Source: Geodermatophilus sp. DSM 44513 (GTDB lineage: Bacteria > Actinomycetota > Actinomycetes > Mycobacteriales > Geodermatophilaceae). Taken from it: DNA of 64,000 nucleotides. The translations under genes and the position numbers were made by a program. The stretch spans positions 3,658,001 through 3,722,000 of the forward strand of contig NZ_CP135963.1 of assembly GCF_032460525.1 (NCBI RefSeq), written 5' to 3'. The notes under the pieces are model-generated. The model was not told the origin of the DNA. It did not search any database and was given only the letters and a program-made list of their open reading frames with translations. Positions 11,521 to 60,578 of this stretch are shown piece by piece (position 1 is the stretch's first letter; each line of letters begins with the position of its first letter).

Positions 11521-11640
11521 ACCGCGCGGTGTCGTGACGAGTGGGGGGCCGGAGGTCCTCCGCGAGGAACGACGCAGGGCTCACCGCAGGTCGGGAACGG
11601 CTCTTGGCCGCGGTGTCGTCCGGCAGGACGACAGTGTCAC
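11521..11640 (-). repeat. Structured dispersed repeat, copy A
   Basis: Read on the reverse strand from 11640, this is one of three copies of a roughly 115-125 bp element. It begins GTGACACTGTCG and contains the birA stop codon (TGA at 11639-11637) in its first bases. A perfect 8-bp hairpin (TGTCGTCC/GGACGACA, loop TGCC) lies at 11633-11614. Further blocks shared with the other copies are GACACCGCGGCCA, a CCGTTCCCGA segment, and the 3' part around GAGGACCTCCGG and CCCACTCGTCACGAC. It fills the birA-PH gene spacer. Confidence 0.8.
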
Positions 11641-12458
11641 CGCACGTGTCGCACGTCCCCGCTGGCCAGCGCGACGGTGCCGGCCGCCGTCCGGACGACG
11701 AGCCGGCCGTCCCAGTCCACGGACTCCGCGATCCCCTCCAGCACCGACCCGTCCGGCAGCGTGGCCGCCACCGGGGACCCGACGGTCGAGGACCAGGCCA
11801 GGTAGTCGCGGGCCAGCCCGGTGAGGACCGGGTCGCCGAGGGCCGCCGTCCAGGGCAGGTAACGGCGCTCCAGACCGCGCAGGAAGCCGAGCAGCACCGC
11901 CGCCCGGTCCACCGGGTGACCCGCGGCCAGCGCCAGCGAGGTGGCGGTGTCCGGCAGCTCGTCGGCGCGGGTGGAGACGTTGAGGCCCACGCCCACCACC
12001 ACCGCGCCGCCGCCCACCTCGGCGAGGATCCCGGCCAGCTTGGCGCCGTCCGCGGCGAGCAGGTCGTTGGGCCACTTCAGCGAGGCCCGCACGCCGGGCA
12101 CCTCGCCCACGGCCTCGGCCAGCGCGACGCCGGTGAGCAGCGGCAGCCACCCGCGGCGGGCGGCGGGGACGTCGGGGCGCAGCAGCACCGACACGGTGAG
12201 CCCCGCGCCCGGCGGGGAGGTCCAGGTGCGGTCCAGCCGGCCCCGGCCGGTGACCTGGTGCTCGGCCACCAGCACCGTCCCCTCGGGGGCGTCGCCGGCC
12301 GCCGCGTCGAGCAGCGCGGCGTTGGTGGAGCCGATCTCGGCCACCACCTCCAGCGACCGCCACAGCCCGCTGCCGGAGGTCAGCGCGGCGGCCAGCGCCG
12401 GGGCGTCGAGCGGGGCCCGGGCCGGGTCGGAGGAGGCGGACGACGACGGTTCGGGCAC
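11637..12458 (-). CDS. birA: Biotin--[acetyl-CoA carboxylase] ligase BirA
   Basis: The enzyme makes biotinyl-AMP and transfers biotin to the AccA3 lysine encoded 6 kb away. The 273-residue protein is a class I ligase: it starts directly with the catalytic domain and lacks the N-terminal winged helix that makes E. coli BirA a repressor. Motifs include the substrate-contact EIGSTN, the biotinyl-AMP loop [15 protein letters not shown], and a small C-terminal SH3-like domain. The GTG start at 12456-12458 lies 20 bp from the divergent accD5 start, and both seem to be served by one symmetric -10 sequence. The stop codon lies in repeat copy A. Confidence 0.93.
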
Positions 12459-12478: not shown

Positions 12479-14104
12479 GTGACGGTGGCTGAACGGGCAA
12501 GCGCCGGGGACGACGTCCCCGCCGACCTCGACCTGCACACGACCGCCGGCAAGCTGGCCGACCTCGAGCGCCGCGTCGGGGAGGCCGCGCACGCCGGCTC
12601 CGAGCGGGCCGTGGACAAGCAGCACGCCGCGGGCAAGATGACCGCCCGGGAGCGGATCGAGGCGCTGCTGGACCCGGGGTCGTTCACCGAGCTCGACGCG
12701 TTCGCCCGCCACCGCTCGACCAGCTTCGGCATGGAGGCCCGCCGCCCCCTCGGCGACGGCGTCGTCACCGGCCACGGCACCGTCGACGGCCGCCCGGTGT
12801 GCGTCTTCTCCCAGGACGTCACCGTCTTCGGCGGCAGCCTCGGCGAGGTCTACGGCGAGAAGATCGTCAAGGTGCTCGACCTCGCCATGCGCACCGGCTG
12901 CCCGGTCGTCGGCATCAACGAGGGCGGCGGCGCGAGAATCCAGGAGGGCGTGGTCTCCCTCGGTCTGTACGCGGAGATCTTCCGGCGCAACGTGCACGCC
13001 TCCGGCGTCGTCCCGCAGATCTCCCTGGTCATGGGCGCCGCCGCCGGCGGGCACGTCTACTCCCCCGCGCTCACCGACTTCGTGGTCATGGTCGACGGCA
13101 CCAGCCAGATGTTCATCACCGGCCCGGACGTGGTGAAGACCGTCACCGGCGAGGACGTGACGCTGGAGGACCTCGGCGGCGCCCGCACGCACAACACCCG
13201 CTCCGGCGTCGCCCACCACCTGGCCGAGGACGAGGACGACGCGCTCGACTACGTCAAGGCGCTGCTGTCCCACCTGCCCAGCAACAACCTCGACCCGCTG
13301 CCGGTCGTCGAGGTGCCCCCGGCCGACACCACGGCCGACGGCGTCACCGACACCGACCGCGAGCTCGACACGTTCGTCCCGGACTCGGCCAACACGCCCT
13401 ACGACATGCACACCGTCATCGAGCACGTGCTCGACGACGGCGAGTTCCTCGAGGTGCAGGCGCTGTTCGCGCCGAACATCGTGGTCGGCTTCGGCCGGGT
13501 CGAGGGCCGGCCGGTCGGTGTGGTGGCCAACCAGCCCACCCAGTTCGCCGGCACGCTGGACATCGACGCCAGCGAGAAGGCGGCGCGGTTCGTGCGCACC
13601 TGCGACGCGTTCAACGTGCCGGTGCTGACCTTCGTCGACGTCCCCGGGTTCCTGCCGGGCACCTCGCAGGAGTGGGAGGGCATCATCCGCCGCGGCGCGA
13701 AGCTGATCTACGCCTACGCCGAGGCGACCGTCCCGAAGATCACCGTGATCACCCGCAAGGCCTACGGCGGCGCCTACGACGTCATGGGCTCCAAGCACCT
13801 CGGCGCAGACCTGAACCTCGCCTGGCCGACCGCGCAGATCGCCGTCATGGGCGCCCAGGGTGCGGTGAACATCCTGTACCGCCGCGAGCTGGCCGACGCC
13901 GAGGACCCCGACGCCCGCCGCGCCGAGCTGATCACCGAGTACGAGGACGCGCTGCTGTCGCCCTACGTCGCCGCCGACCGCGGGTACGTCGACCAGGTGA
14001 TCCGCCCCTCGCACACCCGCATCGAGGTCACCAAGGGGCTGCGCCTGCTGGCCAACAAGCGCCAGACGCTGCCCCCCAAGAAGCACGGGAACATCCCGCT
14101 GTGA
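12479..14104 (+). CDS. accD5: Acyl-/propionyl-CoA carboxylase beta subunit (AccD5 type)
   Basis: This carboxyltransferase subunit moves the carboxyl group from biotin on AccA3 to propionyl-CoA (and perhaps acetyl-CoA), giving methylmalonyl-CoA. The 541 residues show both crotonase-fold carboxyltransferase domains, with [16 protein letters not shown] in the N-terminal half and [16 protein letters not shown] in the C-terminal half, and the typical C-terminal end KKHGNIPL. Propionyl-CoA use is suggested by orthology to AccD5 and by the mutAB-meaB genes in the same window. The GTG start follows a TACGCT box by 9 nt. The stop overlaps the first accE start candidate as GTGA. Confidence 0.94.
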
Positions 14105-14226
14105 CGACGACATCGTCGTCCTCCGGACGACCACCGCAGCCAGGTGCCGTCCCCGAGCCGCGTGGAGCCCATCCGTCGTTCGATCGCGGAGACCCTCCGG
14201 GCCCCCACTCCTCACGACCCCACGAC
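14101..14226 (+). repeat. Structured dispersed repeat, copy B, inside the accD5-accE5 junction
   Basis: This forward copy starts at the accD5 stop (GTGACGACG) and runs about 126 bp. Its hairpin is GTCGTCC/GGACGAC at 14115-14131. It shares CCAGGTGCCGTCCCCGAG with copy C and the 3' block around GACCCTCCGGGCCC and CCCACTCCTCACGAC with copy A. The repeat is read through in frame, so it encodes the first 40 or so residues of the longest accE5 frame. Confidence 0.8.
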
Positions 14227-14445
14227 GAACTCGCGTCGGCACCTCCCCTCCTACGGGTCGTGCGGGGCGAACCCACCGCGGAGGAGCTGGCCGCGCTCAC
14301 CGTCGTCGTGGCCGCGCTGGCACAGCGGCGGCGCCCGCGGCGCCGGCCGGCACCCGTCGGGGCCTGGTCGTGGCCCGCGGACGGCCACCGCCGGCCGCTG
14401 CAGCCGGGGCCCGGTGGCTGGCGCGCCTCGGGGAGGACGGCATGA
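14101..14445 (+). CDS. accE5: Acyl-CoA carboxylase epsilon subunit
   Basis: The small epsilon subunit stabilises the AccA3-AccD5 complex in actinobacteria. The conserved core is [18 protein letters not shown] near the middle, followed by an Arg/Pro linker and a C-terminal Trp-containing tail (WSWPADG). With the GTG at 14101, which overlaps the accD5 stop, the protein has 114 residues. Its first 40 residues are encoded by repeat copy B and are Ser/Pro/Gly-rich. A start at the GTG of 14260 within VVRGEP would give 61 residues and skip the repeat. The coupled start is consistent with the open frame, but the real N terminus is uncertain. The stop overlaps maf as ATGA. Confidence 0.82.
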
Positions 14446-55742: not shown

Positions 55743-56558
55743 TCAGCCCTCCCGGTCCTGCCAGCGGAAGGTGAGCAGGCACAGCACCAGGCCGGCCACG
55801 CACCACAGGCCCAGCACCACCGCCACGGTGCCCAGCTCCCAGGACCCGGCCGGCTCGCGGGCGGCCAGGGCGTCGGGCAGGAACACCGACCGCAGCCCCT
55901 GGGCCAGCCACTTCACCGGGAACACCGCGGCGACGTCCTGCAGCCACCCGGGCACCTGGTCGAAGGGCATGAACACGCCGGAGACGAACTCCAGCACCAG
56001 CGCGATTGGGGTGACCGTCGCCGACGCCGACCGGCCGTTGCGGGCCAGCGTGGACACCACGATCCCCAGCAGCGTGCAGGCGGCCGCGCCGAGCACCGAC
56101 ACCCAGGCGAAGGTCAACCAGTCGGCACCGGCGGGCAGCTCGATGCCGTACACCAGGACGCCGACCAGCAGCAGCAGCACGATGGTCGCCACGGCCACCG
56201 CGAGCACCTGCACGACCTTGCCGACGAAGTAGGCGCTGGCCGGCATGGGCGTGCCGCGCAGGCTCTTCAGCGTCCCGTCCGAGCGCTCCGCGGCGATGTG
56301 GATGGCCATGTTCTGCAGGCTGGCGCCCACGATCCCGGCGGTGATGACCCCGGCCATGAAGTACTGCGGGAAGTCCACGCCGGCGCCCACGTCGTAGTCG
56401 AGGACGGCGCCCAGGCCGAGCAGCAGGATGACTGGGAAGACCAGGGTGAAGACCACCGACTCCCGCTGGCGGAAGAACTCCTTGAGCTCGACGCCGGCAC
56501 GGCTGGCGTAGACCCGGCCGAGCGGGGGCAGCGCGGTGCGCTCCGGAGCGGTGGTCAC
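55743..56558 (-). CDS. ABC-2 type transporter permease
   Basis: The 271-residue membrane protein has the six-helix ABC-2 topology: a first segment VVFTLVFPVILLLGLGAVL, a second at FMAGVITAGIVGAS, two central helices, and a last helix VVLGLWCVAGLVLCLL. It lacks a substrate-specific motif. It partners with the ATPase encoded just upstream, whose stop overlaps its start by 4 nt (GTGA). It would export a drug, lipid or polymer. Confidence 0.9.
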   Translation of the reverse strand: MTTAPERTALPPLGRVYASRAGVELKEFFRQRESVVFTLVFPVILLLGLGAVLDYDVGAGVDFPQYFMAGVITAGIVGASLQNMAIHIAAERSDGTLKSLRGTPMPASAYFVGKVVQVLAVAVATIVLLLLVGVLVYGIELPAGADWLTFAWVSVLGAAACTLLGIVVSTLARNGRSASATVTPIALVLEFVSGVFMPFDQVPGWLQDVAAVFPVKWLAQGLRSVFLPDALAAREPAGSWELGTVAVVLGLWCVAGLVLCLLTFRWQDREG

Positions 56559-57460
56559 GCGTGCTCCCCGATCATCTTGAGGTAGACGTCCTCCAGCGTC
56601 GGGCGGGCCACGGTCAGCCCGGGCACCTCACCCGGGAAGCGGGCGGCCAGCTCCTGCACGAACGCGGTCGGCGCGGCGGTCTCCGCGGTGCGCCGGACGC
56701 CGTCCTGCAGCCAGCTGACCACGGCCGGCGCGCTGCCCCGCCCGCCCAGCGCGGTGGGGACGGCGACCTCGGCGAGCCGGCCCCGGGCGAGGACGCCGAC
56801 CCGGTCGGCCAGCGTCTCGGCCTCGTCCAGGTAGTGCGTGGTGAGCAGCATCGTGGTGCCGAGGTCGCGCAGCGAGCGCAGCAGCGCCCAGAACTGCCGC
56901 CGCGCCTCGGGGTCGAAGCCGGTGGTCGGCTCGTCGAGGAACAGCAGCCGCGGCCGGCCGACGATGCCCAGGGCCACGTCCAGCCGGCGGCGCTGGCCGC
57001 CGGACAGCGTGCGGCCGCGAGCGCGGGCCTGCCCGGTGAGCCCGACCAGCTCCAGCACCTCGTCGGGGTCGCGCGGCTCGGCGAAGCAGGCCGCCCGGGC
57101 CTCCAGCAGCTCGCGCACCGACAGCTGGCTGTCCCCGCCGCCGGACTGCAGCACGATGCCCACCTGCGCCTTCCAGCGCCGCCCGCCCCGCGCCGGGTCC
57201 ACGCCCAGGACGCGCACCTCGCCGCCGTCCCGCCGCCGGTAGCCCTCCAGCACCTCCACCGTGGTGGTCTTGCCCGCGCCGTTGGGCCCGAGCAGCGCGA
57301 AGATCTCGCCGCGGTGGATGTCCAGGTCCAGCCCGTCGACGGCCACCCGGTCGCCGTAGCGCTTGACCAGGCCGCGGACGCTGATGGCGGCGTCCGGGGC
57401 CAGCGGGTCCCCCGGCTGCGGCCGGCCGTCGGCCGGGGCCGCGGGGCGCGTACTCGTCAC
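56555..57460 (-). CDS. ABC-2 type transporter ATP-binding protein
   Basis: The 301-residue ATPase has Walker A GPNGAGKTTT, the signature LSGGQRRRLDVALG, Walker B LLFLDEPTTGFDPE and the H-loop THYLDEAE, of the DrrA/CcmA daunorubicin-resistance type. The C-terminal domain ends KMIGEHA. I chose the GTG at 57458-57460 because GGGAG sits upstream of it. A GTG at 57476-57478 would add 6 residues and begin 2 nt from repeat copy C, with no ribosome binding site. Repeat copy C fills the region upstream of the gene. Confidence 0.92.
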   Translation of the reverse strand: MTSTRPAAPADGRPQPGDPLAPDAAISVRGLVKRYGDRVAVDGLDLDIHRGEIFALLGPNGAGKTTTVEVLEGYRRRDGGEVRVLGVDPARGGRRWKAQVGIVLQSGGGDSQLSVRELLEARAACFAEPRDPDEVLELVGLTGQARARGRTLSGGQRRRLDVALGIVGRPRLLFLDEPTTGFDPEARRQFWALLRSLRDLGTTMLLTTHYLDEAETLADRVGVLARGRLAEVAVPTALGGRGSAPAVVSWLQDGVRRTAETAAPTAFVQELAARFPGEVPGLTVARPTLEDVYLKMIGEHA

Positions 57461-57479
57461 GGGTGCCGAGTCTCCCACC

Positions 57480-57600
57480 GTGACACTGTCGGCCTACCGG
57501 CCGACACCGCGGCCAGGTGCCGTCCCCGAGCTGCGTGGAGCCCCACGCCGCACCCGGTGAGGACCCTCCGGGCCCGTCCCCGGGCACGGCCCCCGCAGGG
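57480..57600 (+). repeat. Structured dispersed repeat, copy C
   Basis: This forward copy begins GTGACACTGTCGG and has the 8-bp hairpin TGTCGGCC/GGCCGACA (57487-57506, loop TACC). It then matches copy A (GACACCGCGGCCA) and copy B (GGTGCCGTCCCCGAG, GCGTGGAGCCC), and ends with GAGGACCCTCCGGGCCC. The region 57461-57622 between the ABC gene and deoA holds only this element. Confidence 0.8.
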
Positions 57601-57622
57601 CGGCGTACCTCTGCCCCCCCTG

Positions 57623-58900
57623 TCAGGCGGTGATGCGGTCGAGCACCAGCGGCAGCGGCACGTCGTCGGTGTCGACGCCGACCGCGCCCTCCAGGGCCTC
57701 CAGCGCCCGCGGGATGCGCGCCGGGTCGTCGGTGTGCAGCTCCAGCAGCGGCTGCCCCGCGGTCACCCGCTCCCCCACCGTCGCCGTCCAGGTGACGCCG
57801 GCCGCGGCCGACACCGGGTCCTCCCTGCGGGCCCGGCCGGCACCCAGCCGCCAGGCCGCGACCCCGAGGGCGTAGGCGTCCAGCCGGGTGAGCGTGCCGG
57901 TCGCGGGGGCCGTCACCACGTGCCGCTGGGCTGGCTGCGGCAGCGGGGCGTCGGGGTCCCCGCCCTGCGCGGCGACCATCCGCCGCCACACGTCCATGGC
58001 CCGCCCGTCGGCCAGGGCCGCGGCCGGGTCGACGTCGCCCCGCCCGGCGCCGGCCAGCATCTCCCGGGCCAGCGCCAGGGTCAGCTCCACGAGGTCCGCC
58101 GGGCCGCCGCCGGCCAGCACCTCGACGGACTCGGCCACCTCGACGGCGTTGCCCGCGGCACGGCCCAGCGGCCGGTCCATCGCGGTCACCAGCGCCACCG
58201 TGCGCACCCCGGCCGCCTGGCCCAGGCCGACCATCGTGCGGGCCAGCTCGCGGGAGTCCTCGGCGGACTTCATGAACGCCCCGGAGCCGGTCTTCACGTC
58301 CAGCACCAGCGCGCCGGCGCCCTCGGCGATCTTCTTGCTCATGATCGAGCTGGCGATCAGCGGGATGGACTCGACGGTGCCGGTGACGTCGCGCAGCGCG
58401 TACAGCTCCTTGTCCGCCGGGGCGAGGTCCGCGCCGGCGGCGCAGACGACCGCGCCCACCTCGCGCAGCTGCGCCAGGTAGGCCTCCTCGTGCACGTCGG
58501 CCCGCCAGCCCGGGATCGACTCCAGCTTGTCCAGCGTGCCGCCGGTGTGGCCCAGCCCGCGGCCGGACAGCTGCGGCACCGCCACCCCGCAGGCGGCGAC
58601 CAGCGGCGCGAGCGGCAGCGTGGTCTTGTCCCCGACCCCGCCGGTGGAGTGCTTGTCCGCGGTCGGGCGGCCCAGGGAGGAGAGGTCCTTGCGCTCGCCG
58701 GAGTCGATCATCGCCTGGGTCCAGGCGGCCAGCTCACCGCCGTCCATGCCGCGGAAGAACACCGCCATGAGCAGCGCGCTCATCTGCTCGCCGGGCACCG
58801 CGCCGCGGGTGTGGGCGTCGATGACCCAGCGGATCTGCTCCGCGCTGAGCCGCCCGCCGTCCCGCTTGGTGCGGATGACGTCGATCGCGTCGAAGGTCAC
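57623..58900 (-). CDS. deoA: Thymidine phosphorylase
   Basis: DeoA releases thymine (or uracil) and deoxyribose-1-phosphate from pyrimidine deoxynucleosides. The 425-residue protein has the phosphate-binding ADKHSTGGVGDKTTL, SGRGLGHTGGTLDKLE, and the substrate-contacting SSIMSKKIAEG. The start is the GTG at 58898-58900, overlapping the cdd stop as GTGA; the upstream extension of the frame is a shadow. Its products feed DeoC after phosphopentomutase. Confidence 0.95.
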   Translation of the reverse strand: MTFDAIDVIRTKRDGGRLSAEQIRWVIDAHTRGAVPGEQMSALLMAVFFRGMDGGELAAWTQAMIDSGERKDLSSLGRPTADKHSTGGVGDKTTLPLAPLVAACGVAVPQLSGRGLGHTGGTLDKLESIPGWRADVHEEAYLAQLREVGAVVCAAGADLAPADKELYALRDVTGTVESIPLIASSIMSKKIAEGAGALVLDVKTGSGAFMKSAEDSRELARTMVGLGQAAGVRTVALVTAMDRPLGRAAGNAVEVAESVEVLAGGGPADLVELTLALAREMLAGAGRGDVDPAAALADGRAMDVWRRMVAAQGGDPDAPLPQPAQRHVVTAPATGTLTRLDAYALGVAAWRLGAGRARREDPVSAAAGVTWTATVGERVTAGQPLLELHTDDPARIPRALEALEGAVGVDTDDVPLPLVLDRITA

Positions 58901-59301
58901 CGCGCGGCCGCCCTCTCCAGGTCGTCGGGGCCGAAGGCGTCGGGCAGCACCTCGCGCATCGGCACGATCCCGAGCGACACCGTCTCGAGGAGCAGGTCCG
59001 GGCCGCCGTGCTCCCACAGCAGCTGCCGGCACCGGCCGCAGGGCATGAGCGGCTGCCCGTCCCCGCCGACGCAGGCCACCGCGACCAGCCGGCCGCCGCC
59101 GGTGCGGGCCAGGTCGCTGACCATCCCGCACTCGGCGCACAGGGCCAGCCCGTAGGAGGCGTTCTCCACGTTGCACCCGGTGACCACCCGGCCGTCGTCC
59201 ACCAGCCCGGCGACACCGACGGGGAAGCGCGAGTAGGGCGCGTAGGCGTGCGTCATCGCCTCCCGGGCCTCCTGGCGCAGCCGCCCCCAGTCGACGTCCA
59301 C
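58897..59301 (-). CDS. cdd: Cytidine deaminase
   Basis: Cdd deaminates cytidine and deoxycytidine to uridine forms. The 134-residue length matches the tetrameric T-CDA class. Zinc ligands are the Cys in LCAECG and the two in PCGRCRQ, with the catalytic Glu in CAE, and the N-terminal substrate motif is AYAPYSRFPVG and NVENASYG. The GTG at 59299-59301 overlaps the permease stop by one base (TAGTG), so the enzyme is coupled to the nucleoside importer. Confidence 0.95.
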   Translation of the reverse strand: MDVDWGRLRQEAREAMTHAYAPYSRFPVGVAGLVDDGRVVTGCNVENASYGLALCAECGMVSDLARTGGGRLVAVACVGGDGQPLMPCGRCRQLLWEHGGPDLLLETVSLGIVPMREVLPDAFGPDDLERAAAR

Positions 59302-60578
59302 TAGTGCTCCCCCCGCCGGTAGACCAGACCGTCGGCCTTGGGTGGGCGCAGCCGCTGGGAGGCCAGCGACAGCACCAGCAGCGTGGTGAGGTGCGGGGTG
59401 AAGAAGACGATGCCCTCGGGCAGCCGCTCGACGGTGAGGAAGCCGACGAGCGCAGCCACCGCAAAGGCCCCGGCGAGCACGGCTTGCACGATCTTGCGGC
59501 GCCGCGCCTGGTAGGCGGCGACCCCGGCGAGCAGGACGGCGACGAGCAGCAGCAGCGCGACGACCGCGGTCTGGCTGCGCAGCTGCAGGGCGTCGGCGAA
59601 GCCGAACAGGCCCGCGCCGGCCGCCAGCCCGCCGGGCCGCCAGTTGCCGAAGATCAGCGCGGCCAGGCCGATGAAGCCGCGGCCGCCGGTCTGCCCCTCG
59701 CGGTAGATGCCGGCGACGAAGACGAGGAAGACACCGCCCAGGCCGGCCAGGGCCCCGGACACGATGACCGCCAGGTACTTCAGCCGGTAGACCGGCACGC
59801 CCAGGGAGTCCGCGGCGGCGGGGTTCTCCCCGCAGGCGCGCAGCCGCAGGCCGAAGGCGGTCCGCCACAGCAGCAGGTAGGAGACCGGGACGAGCAGCAC
59901 GGCCGCCAGGGTGAGCAGGCCCACCCCGCTCGTCAGCCCGCGCAGCAGCCCGGCCAGGTCGCTGACGCCGAACCAGCCCTGGCGCTCCAGGTCGCCGAGC
60001 AGGTCCGGGCCGGAGGACAGCACCGGCAGGGAGAACGACGGCGGCTCGCTGGACAGCGACGGGGACTGGGTCGGGCCGCCGCCGCTGCCCTCGGTGAACA
60101 GCAGCTCGGACAGGAAGCGGACGACGCCCTCGGCGAGGATGTTGATCGCCACGCCGGAGACGACGTGGTCCACGCCGAAGGTGACCGTGGCGATCGCGTG
60201 CAGCAGGCCGCCGGCCGCGCCGAAGACCAGCCCGCCGACCACCGCGCCGGCCCAGCCCCACTGGTAGCCGGCCCAGCCGGCGCCCCAGGTGCCGAGGATC
60301 ATCATCCCCTCGAGGCCGATGTTGACCACGCCCGCGCGTTCGGACCACAGCCCGCCGAGGGCCGCCAGGCCGATGGGGACGGCGAGCAGCAGGGCCGCGG
60401 ACAGGGTCGAGGACGAGGTGAGCTCCTGCTCGCCGGAGACCACCCGGACCAGCGAGAACAGCAGCCACAGGCCGGCGAGCAGCCAGACCACCCGCCGGGC
60501 CCGGCCGCCGCCCATGAGCAGGTCGGTGAGCGGGCCACGGCTGGGCTGCCCGGTGCGGGTGGGTGCCTGGGTGCTCAT
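59301..60578 (-). CDS. Nucleoside ABC transporter permease, second
   Basis: The 425-residue permease has about 10 hydrophobic segments and belongs to the BPD-transp-2 family used by BmpA-type nucleoside importers. Family phrases are ERAGVVNIGLEGMMILG and ENPAAADSLGVPVYRLKY. The start overlaps the other permease's stop as ATGA and the end overlaps cdd by one base. The last 40 residues carry an additional helix pair and a basic tail. It forms the membrane channel together with the other permease. Confidence 0.93.
   Translation of the reverse strand: MSTQAPTRTGQPSRGPLTDLLMGGGRARRVVWLLAGLWLLFSLVRVVSGEQELTSSSTLSAALLLAVPIGLAALGGLWSERAGVVNIGLEGMMILGTWGAGWAGYQWGWAGAVVGGLVFGAAGGLLHAIATVTFGVDHVVSGVAINILAEGVVRFLSELLFTEGSGGGPTQSPSLSSEPPSFSLPVLSSGPDLLGDLERQGWFGVSDLAGLLRGLTSGVGLLTLAAVLLVPVSYLLLWRTAFGLRLRACGENPAAADSLGVPVYRLKYLAVIVSGALAGLGGVFLVFVAGIYREGQTGGRGFIGLAALIFGNWRPGGLAAGAGLFGFADALQLRSQTAVVALLLLVAVLLAGVAAYQARRRKIVQAVLAGAFAVAALVGFLTVERLPEGIVFFTPHLTTLLVLSLASQRLRPPKADGLVYRRGEH

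Follow-up and report, generated by a model that had tools for sequence, protein, structure and literature searches.

REP of the GTAG and CGTC superfamilies are small palindromic repeats situated at gene 3′ ends, next to convergent or co-directional genes; as set out in passages of PMC3733652, a stop codon can come from the repeat end, some repeats lie within open reading frames, and the CGTC REPs have no dedicated transposase. BOX repeats of Streptococcus are folded elements in which an end module is followed by variable tandem internal units and a further end module; the excerpts of PMC3049150 used here report that copies can form open reading frames, that the terminal repeats resemble an IS and that the repeats were judged parasitic. 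MIRU are tandem-capable units of 46-101 bp at 41 loci, which are reported to insert at start codons with the frame kept open and carry an open reading frame of their own coupled to the next gene (extracts of PMC12548453 and PMC3914561). Rickettsia palindromic elements (RPE) are in-frame palindromic insertions that add residues to proteins, according to part of PMC3733652.

Here we analyse a repeat found in the window, by which we mean the whole 64-kb stretch of Geodermatophilus DNA under study. We take it, with a probability of about 0.8, to be a dispersed, non-autonomous palindromic repeat of the type of REP, BOX and MIRU that is specific to the Geodermatophilaceae, a family of soil bacteria, and served by a putative mover. 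This reading is supported by two hairpins and a conserved linker, many copies, patchy occupancy of orthologous sites, a place on the sense strand behind stop codons, often with a TGA of the element's own, head-to-tail growth and a frame that is open into accE. A preliminary description of the locus had offered a small mobile palindromic element as one option, which is supported by the dispersed copies, their presence or absence at orthologous sites, the occurrence of both orientations at one site and the limitation to one family. The element seems to be undescribed, while resembling known kinds of bacterial repeats, and it adds an abundant, apparently new repeat to a whole bacterial family.

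Compared with REP as presented in those passages of PMC3733652, the element shares its location at gene 3′ ends, its convergent or co-directional neighbours and the stop codon supplied by the element end and, where the CGTC REPs have no dedicated transposase, none of the Y1 kind was found for it. It differs in being longer (two hairpins plus linker, ∼110-140 nt, against 20-40 bp), in having neither the GTAG tag nor the AT-first stem pairs of the CGTC REPs, and in forming head-to-tail arrays. When tested for a REP terminal tag, its upstream consensus was ACAYY, and the GTC of a CGTC-like string fell within the stem. A word search of PMC3733652 returned 0 occurrences of actinobacter, Frankia or three Geodermatophilaceae genera. 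Mobilization of the element as a REP by RAYT (Y1 tyrosine transposase) would suit this niche, including the stop-supplying ends that PMC3733652 describes in the part consulted, but PF01797 (Y1/RAYT transposase) was detected in 0/112 family genomes and, in a further search, in 0/1 genome, the same profile matching 5/14 named genomes as a positive control. The lack of a GTAG tag and the head-to-tail rather than opposite orientation of neighbouring copies also stand against a RAYT-driven REP, which is largely refuted and in our estimation very improbable.

With BOX, to the extent covered by the PMC3049150 excerpts, the element has in common end modules and a tandem internal unit, a comparison of plan rather than of letters and between different hosts; it differs in that no IS partner and, by eye, no terminal inverted repeats were seen. 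Its likeness to MIRU, again drawn from extracts and concerning arrangement rather than letters, lies in similar size, tandem growth and a stop/start overlap with open frame at accD/accE; unlike MIRU, 71 of the 86 copies with a called downstream gene face a convergent gene, and coding was seen at the accD/accE site alone. The in-frame palindromic insertion at that one site also recalls RPE as outlined in part of PMC3733652, most copies of the element being extragenic.

The preliminary view that no named element matches holds as far as Rfam, phage, plasmid and open-licence PubMed Central literature were compared, with no paper describing the element among those listed from the last. Known Rfam RNAs were rejected: the window gave no match above cut-off, and eight loci searched at E up to 1 yielded three sub-threshold matches that lie outside the element. 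One weak match to the cspA thermoregulator (L005:783-1123; 30.6 bits against a cut-off of 78) is probably due to chance. Phage or plasmid cargo was likewise rejected for want of any match, among records from which those near the window's genome were possibly left out.

Anatomy of the element and its copies in the window

In the copies listed, the element begins with (TGA)CAYY, followed by hairpin 1, the linker ACCGCGGCCAGGTGCCGTCCCC and a variable stretch with TGAGCC or GGAGCC; its 3′ part comprises hairpin 2, whose apex ACCCTCCGGG lies within a longer variable stem, and often a 3′ module like CTCGCAGGGCGGCTCACC. Hairpin 1 has a 7-bp stem and a loop of mostly 3 or 4 nt. Divergence is 4.4% in the linker, as against 11.1% over the body as a whole and 14.5% in the stem. 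By eye, TGAGCC and the 3′ module form a candidate pairing. A unit of linker plus hairpin 2, lacking hairpin 1, can recur in head-to-tail order, as in L005, where the unit measures 86 bp and is present in 3.2 copies, and further arrays occur in L028, L031, L039, L050 and L052. Copies less than 150 nt apart were co-oriented head-to-tail in 44/44 distinct pairs (55/55 including duplicates).

The three copies of the preliminary description were recovered at the places and on the strands given in Table 1. They had been said to be related along most of their length, and over most of it they align with 78% mean column identity (175 columns including flanks); in a whole-genome search with copy C, copies A and B returned E-values of 5.1e-17 and 1.7e-13, respectively, which rules out chance. 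The compensatory change reported between copies A and C was also found, the sixth pair of the 8-bp stem drawn at that time being T-A in A and G-C in C with pairing kept. No tRNA was found in the window.

Table 1. Coordinates of the element copies, their parts and neighbouring genes in the window.
Feature	Position	Strand	Remarks
Copy A	11531..11639	-	First three bases TGA (11639-11637) = stop of the biotin-protein ligase gene
Copy A hairpin 1	11615..11632	-	GTCGTCC TGCC GGACGAC
Copy A hairpin 2	11531..11573	-	GTCG...GGAGGACCTCCGGCCCCC...CGAC; only the apex corresponds to model helix 2; outer stem by eye
Biotin-protein ligase gene (PF03099, PF02237; birA)	11637..12458	-	Host gene upstream of copy A
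Copy B	about 14108..14218	+	Between accD and accE, in frame into accE
Copy B hairpin 1	14115..14131	+	GTCGTCC TCC GGACGAC
Copy B conserved linker ACCGCAGCCAGGTGCCGTCCCC	14133..14154	+	
Copy B hairpin 2	14175..14218	+	Ends by eye
accD-type carboxyl transferase (PF01039)	12479..14104	+	Host gene upstream of copy B; TGA overlaps accE GTG start
accE (PF13822 from residue 49)	14101..14445	+	Preceding 48 residues mainly from copy B; translation predicted
Copy C including 3′ module	57481..about 57609	+	Antisense to both neighbours
Copy C hairpin 1	57488..57505	+	GTCGGCC TACC GGCCGAC
Copy C conserved linker ACCGCGGCCAGGTGCCGTCCCC	57506..57527	+	
Copy C 3′ module CCCGCAGGGCGGCGTACC	57592..57609	+	By eye; in many, not all, element copies
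Pyrimidine nucleoside phosphorylase-like gene	57623-59464	-	Neighbour of copy C
ABC ATPase gene	56555-57478	-	Neighbour of copy C

Copy number and distribution

The copy C query gave 33 matches (E <= 1e-3) in the window's genome, a single contig of 4,628,844 bases, one of which (E 2.8e-4) spans hairpin 2 only. After merging of tandem neighbours these matches lie at 28 places, and the earlier term 'three-copy' is therefore an undercount. E-values between different sites of this genome reached 6.6e-39. Genome searches of the same type found 7-45 matches in each of 25/25 genus genomes; outside the genus, 3/16 genomes returned a lone weak match (E between about 3e-4 and 6e-4) that looks like chance. 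The best 11-40 candidates per genome were scored, making these copy numbers lower bounds.

R1, a covariance model derived from 34 copies, matched 101/112 Geodermatophilaceae genomes, in nine of 12 genera. Within an order-wide sample, R1 matched 50 of the 298 genomes, 49 of them Geodermatophilaceae and one other, and at least two family members in this sample had no match. The exact linker pattern occurs in at least 120 stretches of GTDB genomes; among the linker matches listed, 80/80 titles read Geodermatophilus, Blastococcus, Modestobacter or Geodermatophilaceae bacterium, and all three genera belong to this family. Loci L285 and L284, from two genus mates of the window's genome, are 100% identical to L099 of G. 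chilensis (over 4001 bases) and L143 of G. poikilotrophus (over 3301 bases), respectively. The one non-family match (G248:C8:1481-1613, L340) comes from a genome of 240 contigs that is 86% complete with 4% contamination. Over long stretches, the surrounding DNA shares 72-82% identity with Geodermatophilaceae loci, a resemblance that points to a contaminant contig as its likely, though not proven, source.

The genomes are GC-rich, their spacers hold other palindromes, and these features, with the weak matches outside the genus, might suggest unrelated GC-rich terminator hairpins that are alike by chance or composition. Such hairpins are nevertheless refuted by the E-values between sites of one genome, by conservation of the unpaired linker and by near-confinement to one family, and we give them practically no weight. 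Local duplication of just three loci, or a chance likeness among them, is ruled out by the same genome-wide and family-wide matches.

Position relative to genes and stop codons

We tabulated the neighbours of 172 copies taken from loci L001-L213. Those numbered L086-L205 had been collected by the exact linker pattern, so that intact linkers are favoured. The upstream gene was in sense orientation for 134 copies, antisense for 11 and uncalled for 27; the downstream gene was convergent (antisense) for 71, co-directional (sense) for 15 and uncalled for 86, the 'downstream' stretch in arrays possibly being a further unit. Of 432 test pieces taken from its own training genes, the frame caller got 369 right. 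In a 454-kb control segment, a convergent gene faces 122/418 gene 3′ ends and, among ends with a spacer of at least 90 nt, 40/122.

Among the 134 sense upstream genes, 105 have stop codons that start between −19 and −4 of hairpin 1; in 46 of these the start falls at −7 precisely, where the element TGA lies (45 TGA, 1 TAA); nine stop further upstream, and 20 frames run on to end inside the element. Host stops outside the element (−25 to −4) are TGA in 49/61 cases, which is close to the background rate (356/419), and the TGA at −7 thus looks element-supplied rather than a host target. Where the stop comes earlier or the upstream gene is antisense, T at −7 is present in 26/67 copies and not strongly conserved. 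The target of MIRU is DTGA. A host TGA stop as insertion target of the element is unsupported by these counts; selection against damage explains the gene-end bias well, and targeting, though conceivable, is not needed.

Location directly behind stop codons, the sense-strand bias and the convergent neighbours would also be expected of a structured RNA acting at the 3′ ends of mRNAs (in termination, processing or stability) and held in place by selection at each site. Against this, copy C lies antisense to the genes on either side, and no U-tract follows either hairpin in the copies compared by eye, so that nothing resembling the T-run of an intrinsic terminator was seen in those listed.

Gain and loss at orthologous sites

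The four sites examined (A, B, C and a further site, 3746) were selected for carrying a copy in the window's genome. Among 25 genus genomes they were occupied in 2, 9, 3 and 5, respectively, and copies thus come and go; empty sites in relatives had been a point raised in the preliminary description. The copies at site 3746 run in sense orientation in two genomes and in the opposite orientation in three, two more degenerate starts (L273, L278) having been seen by eye and left uncounted by the profile. Occupancy is patchy on a four-gene tree as well: G008, the sister of the window's genome, is without copies A, B, C and 3746 and has in common with it another copy (L019, L036 in G008).

Site A is occupied in G000 and G012 and empty in G008. 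The two A copies look orthologous, though the genomes are not sisters, and transfer, recurrent insertion or reuse of the site, or loss must be allowed. In both element-bearing genes the element TGA is the stop codon, and both end 6 codons before the commonest end (16/26 orthologue rows); at site 3746, G008 has a TAG stop where the window's genome has the element TGA. Up to 26 site clusters are common to several loci or species at 84% upstream identity, a figure tallied before the body-identity filter; some copies are therefore old or sites recur. The same-site listing with the pair L019/L036 holds false pairs at low upstream identity. Such sites in common suit a structured RNA retained by selection, but absence of the element from at least 20/25 genomes at three of the four sites does not.

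In comparisons of empty with occupied sites, the 5′ junction was sharp in several cases. The 3′ spacer was often unalignable, and clean insertion is consequently well seen at accD/accE only. No consistent target duplication was found in these comparisons; site A of the window's own genome shows a possible duplication of GCGGTGAC, which by eye is absent in G012.

Under the mobile-element reading, we suggest as the most likely course that hairpin-bearing DNA would be transposed in trans by a putative recombinase, and that insertions would survive where they do least harm, behind genes and for the most part where two genes converge, with the 5′ TGA and the open frame of the element softening the damage. 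Arrays may then grow by unequal recombination and copies slowly be lost, and an inserted element would be transcribed as the 3′-end hairpin of the upstream gene. No mobile parent with the halves of the element as its ends was found in the loci analysed: 25 left-only and nine right-only matches gave just two half-pairs, 132 nt apart. The natural presence/absence pairs offer a test of how palindromic repeats without a known transposase move.

Conserved pairing and its possible causes

Hairpin 1 has 7/7 pairs in 158 of the 172 distinct copies and 6/7 in 11, and the pairing that the preliminary description saw kept in its copies is thus kept in most others. Further covariation was sought in alignment A3 (107 distinct rows), where hairpin 1 is 98.1% paired with two-sided changes in 6/7 of its pairs. 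In A3 overall, 94.5% of cells pair compared with 82.5% in shuffles, and 11/13 pairs show two-sided changes; the observed values were reached by 0/500 shuffles, and slid controls brought pairing down to 33-61%. A3 was fitted to the covariance model, which favours pairing, whereas hairpin 1 was tallied independently over the 172 copies. RNAalifold on the first alignment gave 11 pairs only; the mixture of 3- and 4-nt loops had put part of hairpin 1 out of register there, a fault mended by the model-based alignment. Folding of single copies showed no clear gain over shuffles (z −0.29, −0.32 and −1.63), and the structural evidence is therefore comparative, not energetic.

Between same-site copies in different loci, 62 pair positions showed changes in both partners and 12 in a single partner (67 pairs of copies, not independent of each other, with upstream identity >= 0.84 and body identity >= 0.78, copies whose hairpin does not start with G and end with C having been left out). 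Stem cells over 185 copies (n=1295) comprise 1269 Watson-Crick pairs, 6 G-T, 9 A-C and 11 others. G-T is thus as rare as A-C, though RNA selection should spare G-T; with numbers this small, its scarcity points weakly to a DNA-level cause. Constraint on, or renewal of, a DNA palindrome fits the conservation of pairing at least as well as RNA selection does. Of the earlier proposal of selection on folded RNA or DNA, the conserved pairing and the excess of two-sided changes stand, but the tolerance of wobbles typical of RNA is missing.

It is quite conceivable, if at somewhat under even odds, that the stem covariation was produced at the DNA level, by conversion between copies or by template switching from arm to arm, and not by selection on pairing; this view of its cause is compatible with a mobile element. 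In its favour, the same-site copies L033 and L035 (from G006 and G004) have bodies 96% identical and differ in hairpin 1 by three whole paired swaps, a few discrete stem types keep recurring among the 172 copies, and wobbles are rare. Selection for pairing after insertion would look much alike, however, and the dependence among copy pairs and the small wobble counts weigh against the argument too. The presence/absence pairs also offer a test of whether RNA selection or renewal of DNA palindromes lies behind compensatory change in repeat hairpins, and covariation by itself is no proof of a functional RNA.

As to a structured RNA at mRNA 3′ ends, the option named in the preliminary description alongside the mobile element, conserved pairing, its retention at the same sites and the strong conservation of the linker speak for it, and an RNA role is possible. 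Wobbles are not in excess, however, and single copies fold no better than shuffles; weighing these points together with those on position and occupancy, we consider this explanation rather unlikely.

The accD/accE site as predicted coding sequence

Relatives that lack the element have an accE start, GTG or ATG, which either overlaps the accD stop or lies downstream of it. In 8/9 genomes that bear the element at this site, the frame is open from the accD/accE overlap through the element into accE, and the ninth (L302) has a separate ATG after the element. The accE extension (region 14101-14240), encoded mainly by copy B, is predicted to be translated. The annotated end of birA and start of accE can be repeat-made. 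By eye, other repeats seem to extend accE in frame in G008, G014 and, nested, G012 (loci L283, L288 and L293), suggesting that the accE N-terminus is permissive.

A more specific version of the mobile-element reading, which strikes us as a distinctly long shot, would be a stop-landing mobile hairpin that brings its own stop codon, is moved by a putative non-Y1 recombinase, has hairpin 1 renewed as a whole DNA palindrome by arm-to-arm copying or exchange and repeatedly becomes coding at accD/accE. If it were true, covariation would arise without RNA selection.

Other palindromic repeats

A second dispersed palindromic repeat, GGAAGGACC..TGCCCCCCAC..CTCGCA.GCTCG..GCGGG.CCCTGCA, is in places fused to hairpin 1 and the linker, and takes over after the linker in L016, L026 and the last unit of L005. 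It has 14 matches in segment 3528001-3982000 of the window's own genome and five in G008:C14:1-400000. At sites C and 3746, relatives (L312, L314, L318, L323, L332, L268 and L275) carry other long near-perfect palindromes, examples seen by eye being GATCATGG...CCATGATC and GAGATCTGCACAGTGG...CCACTGTGCAGATCTC.
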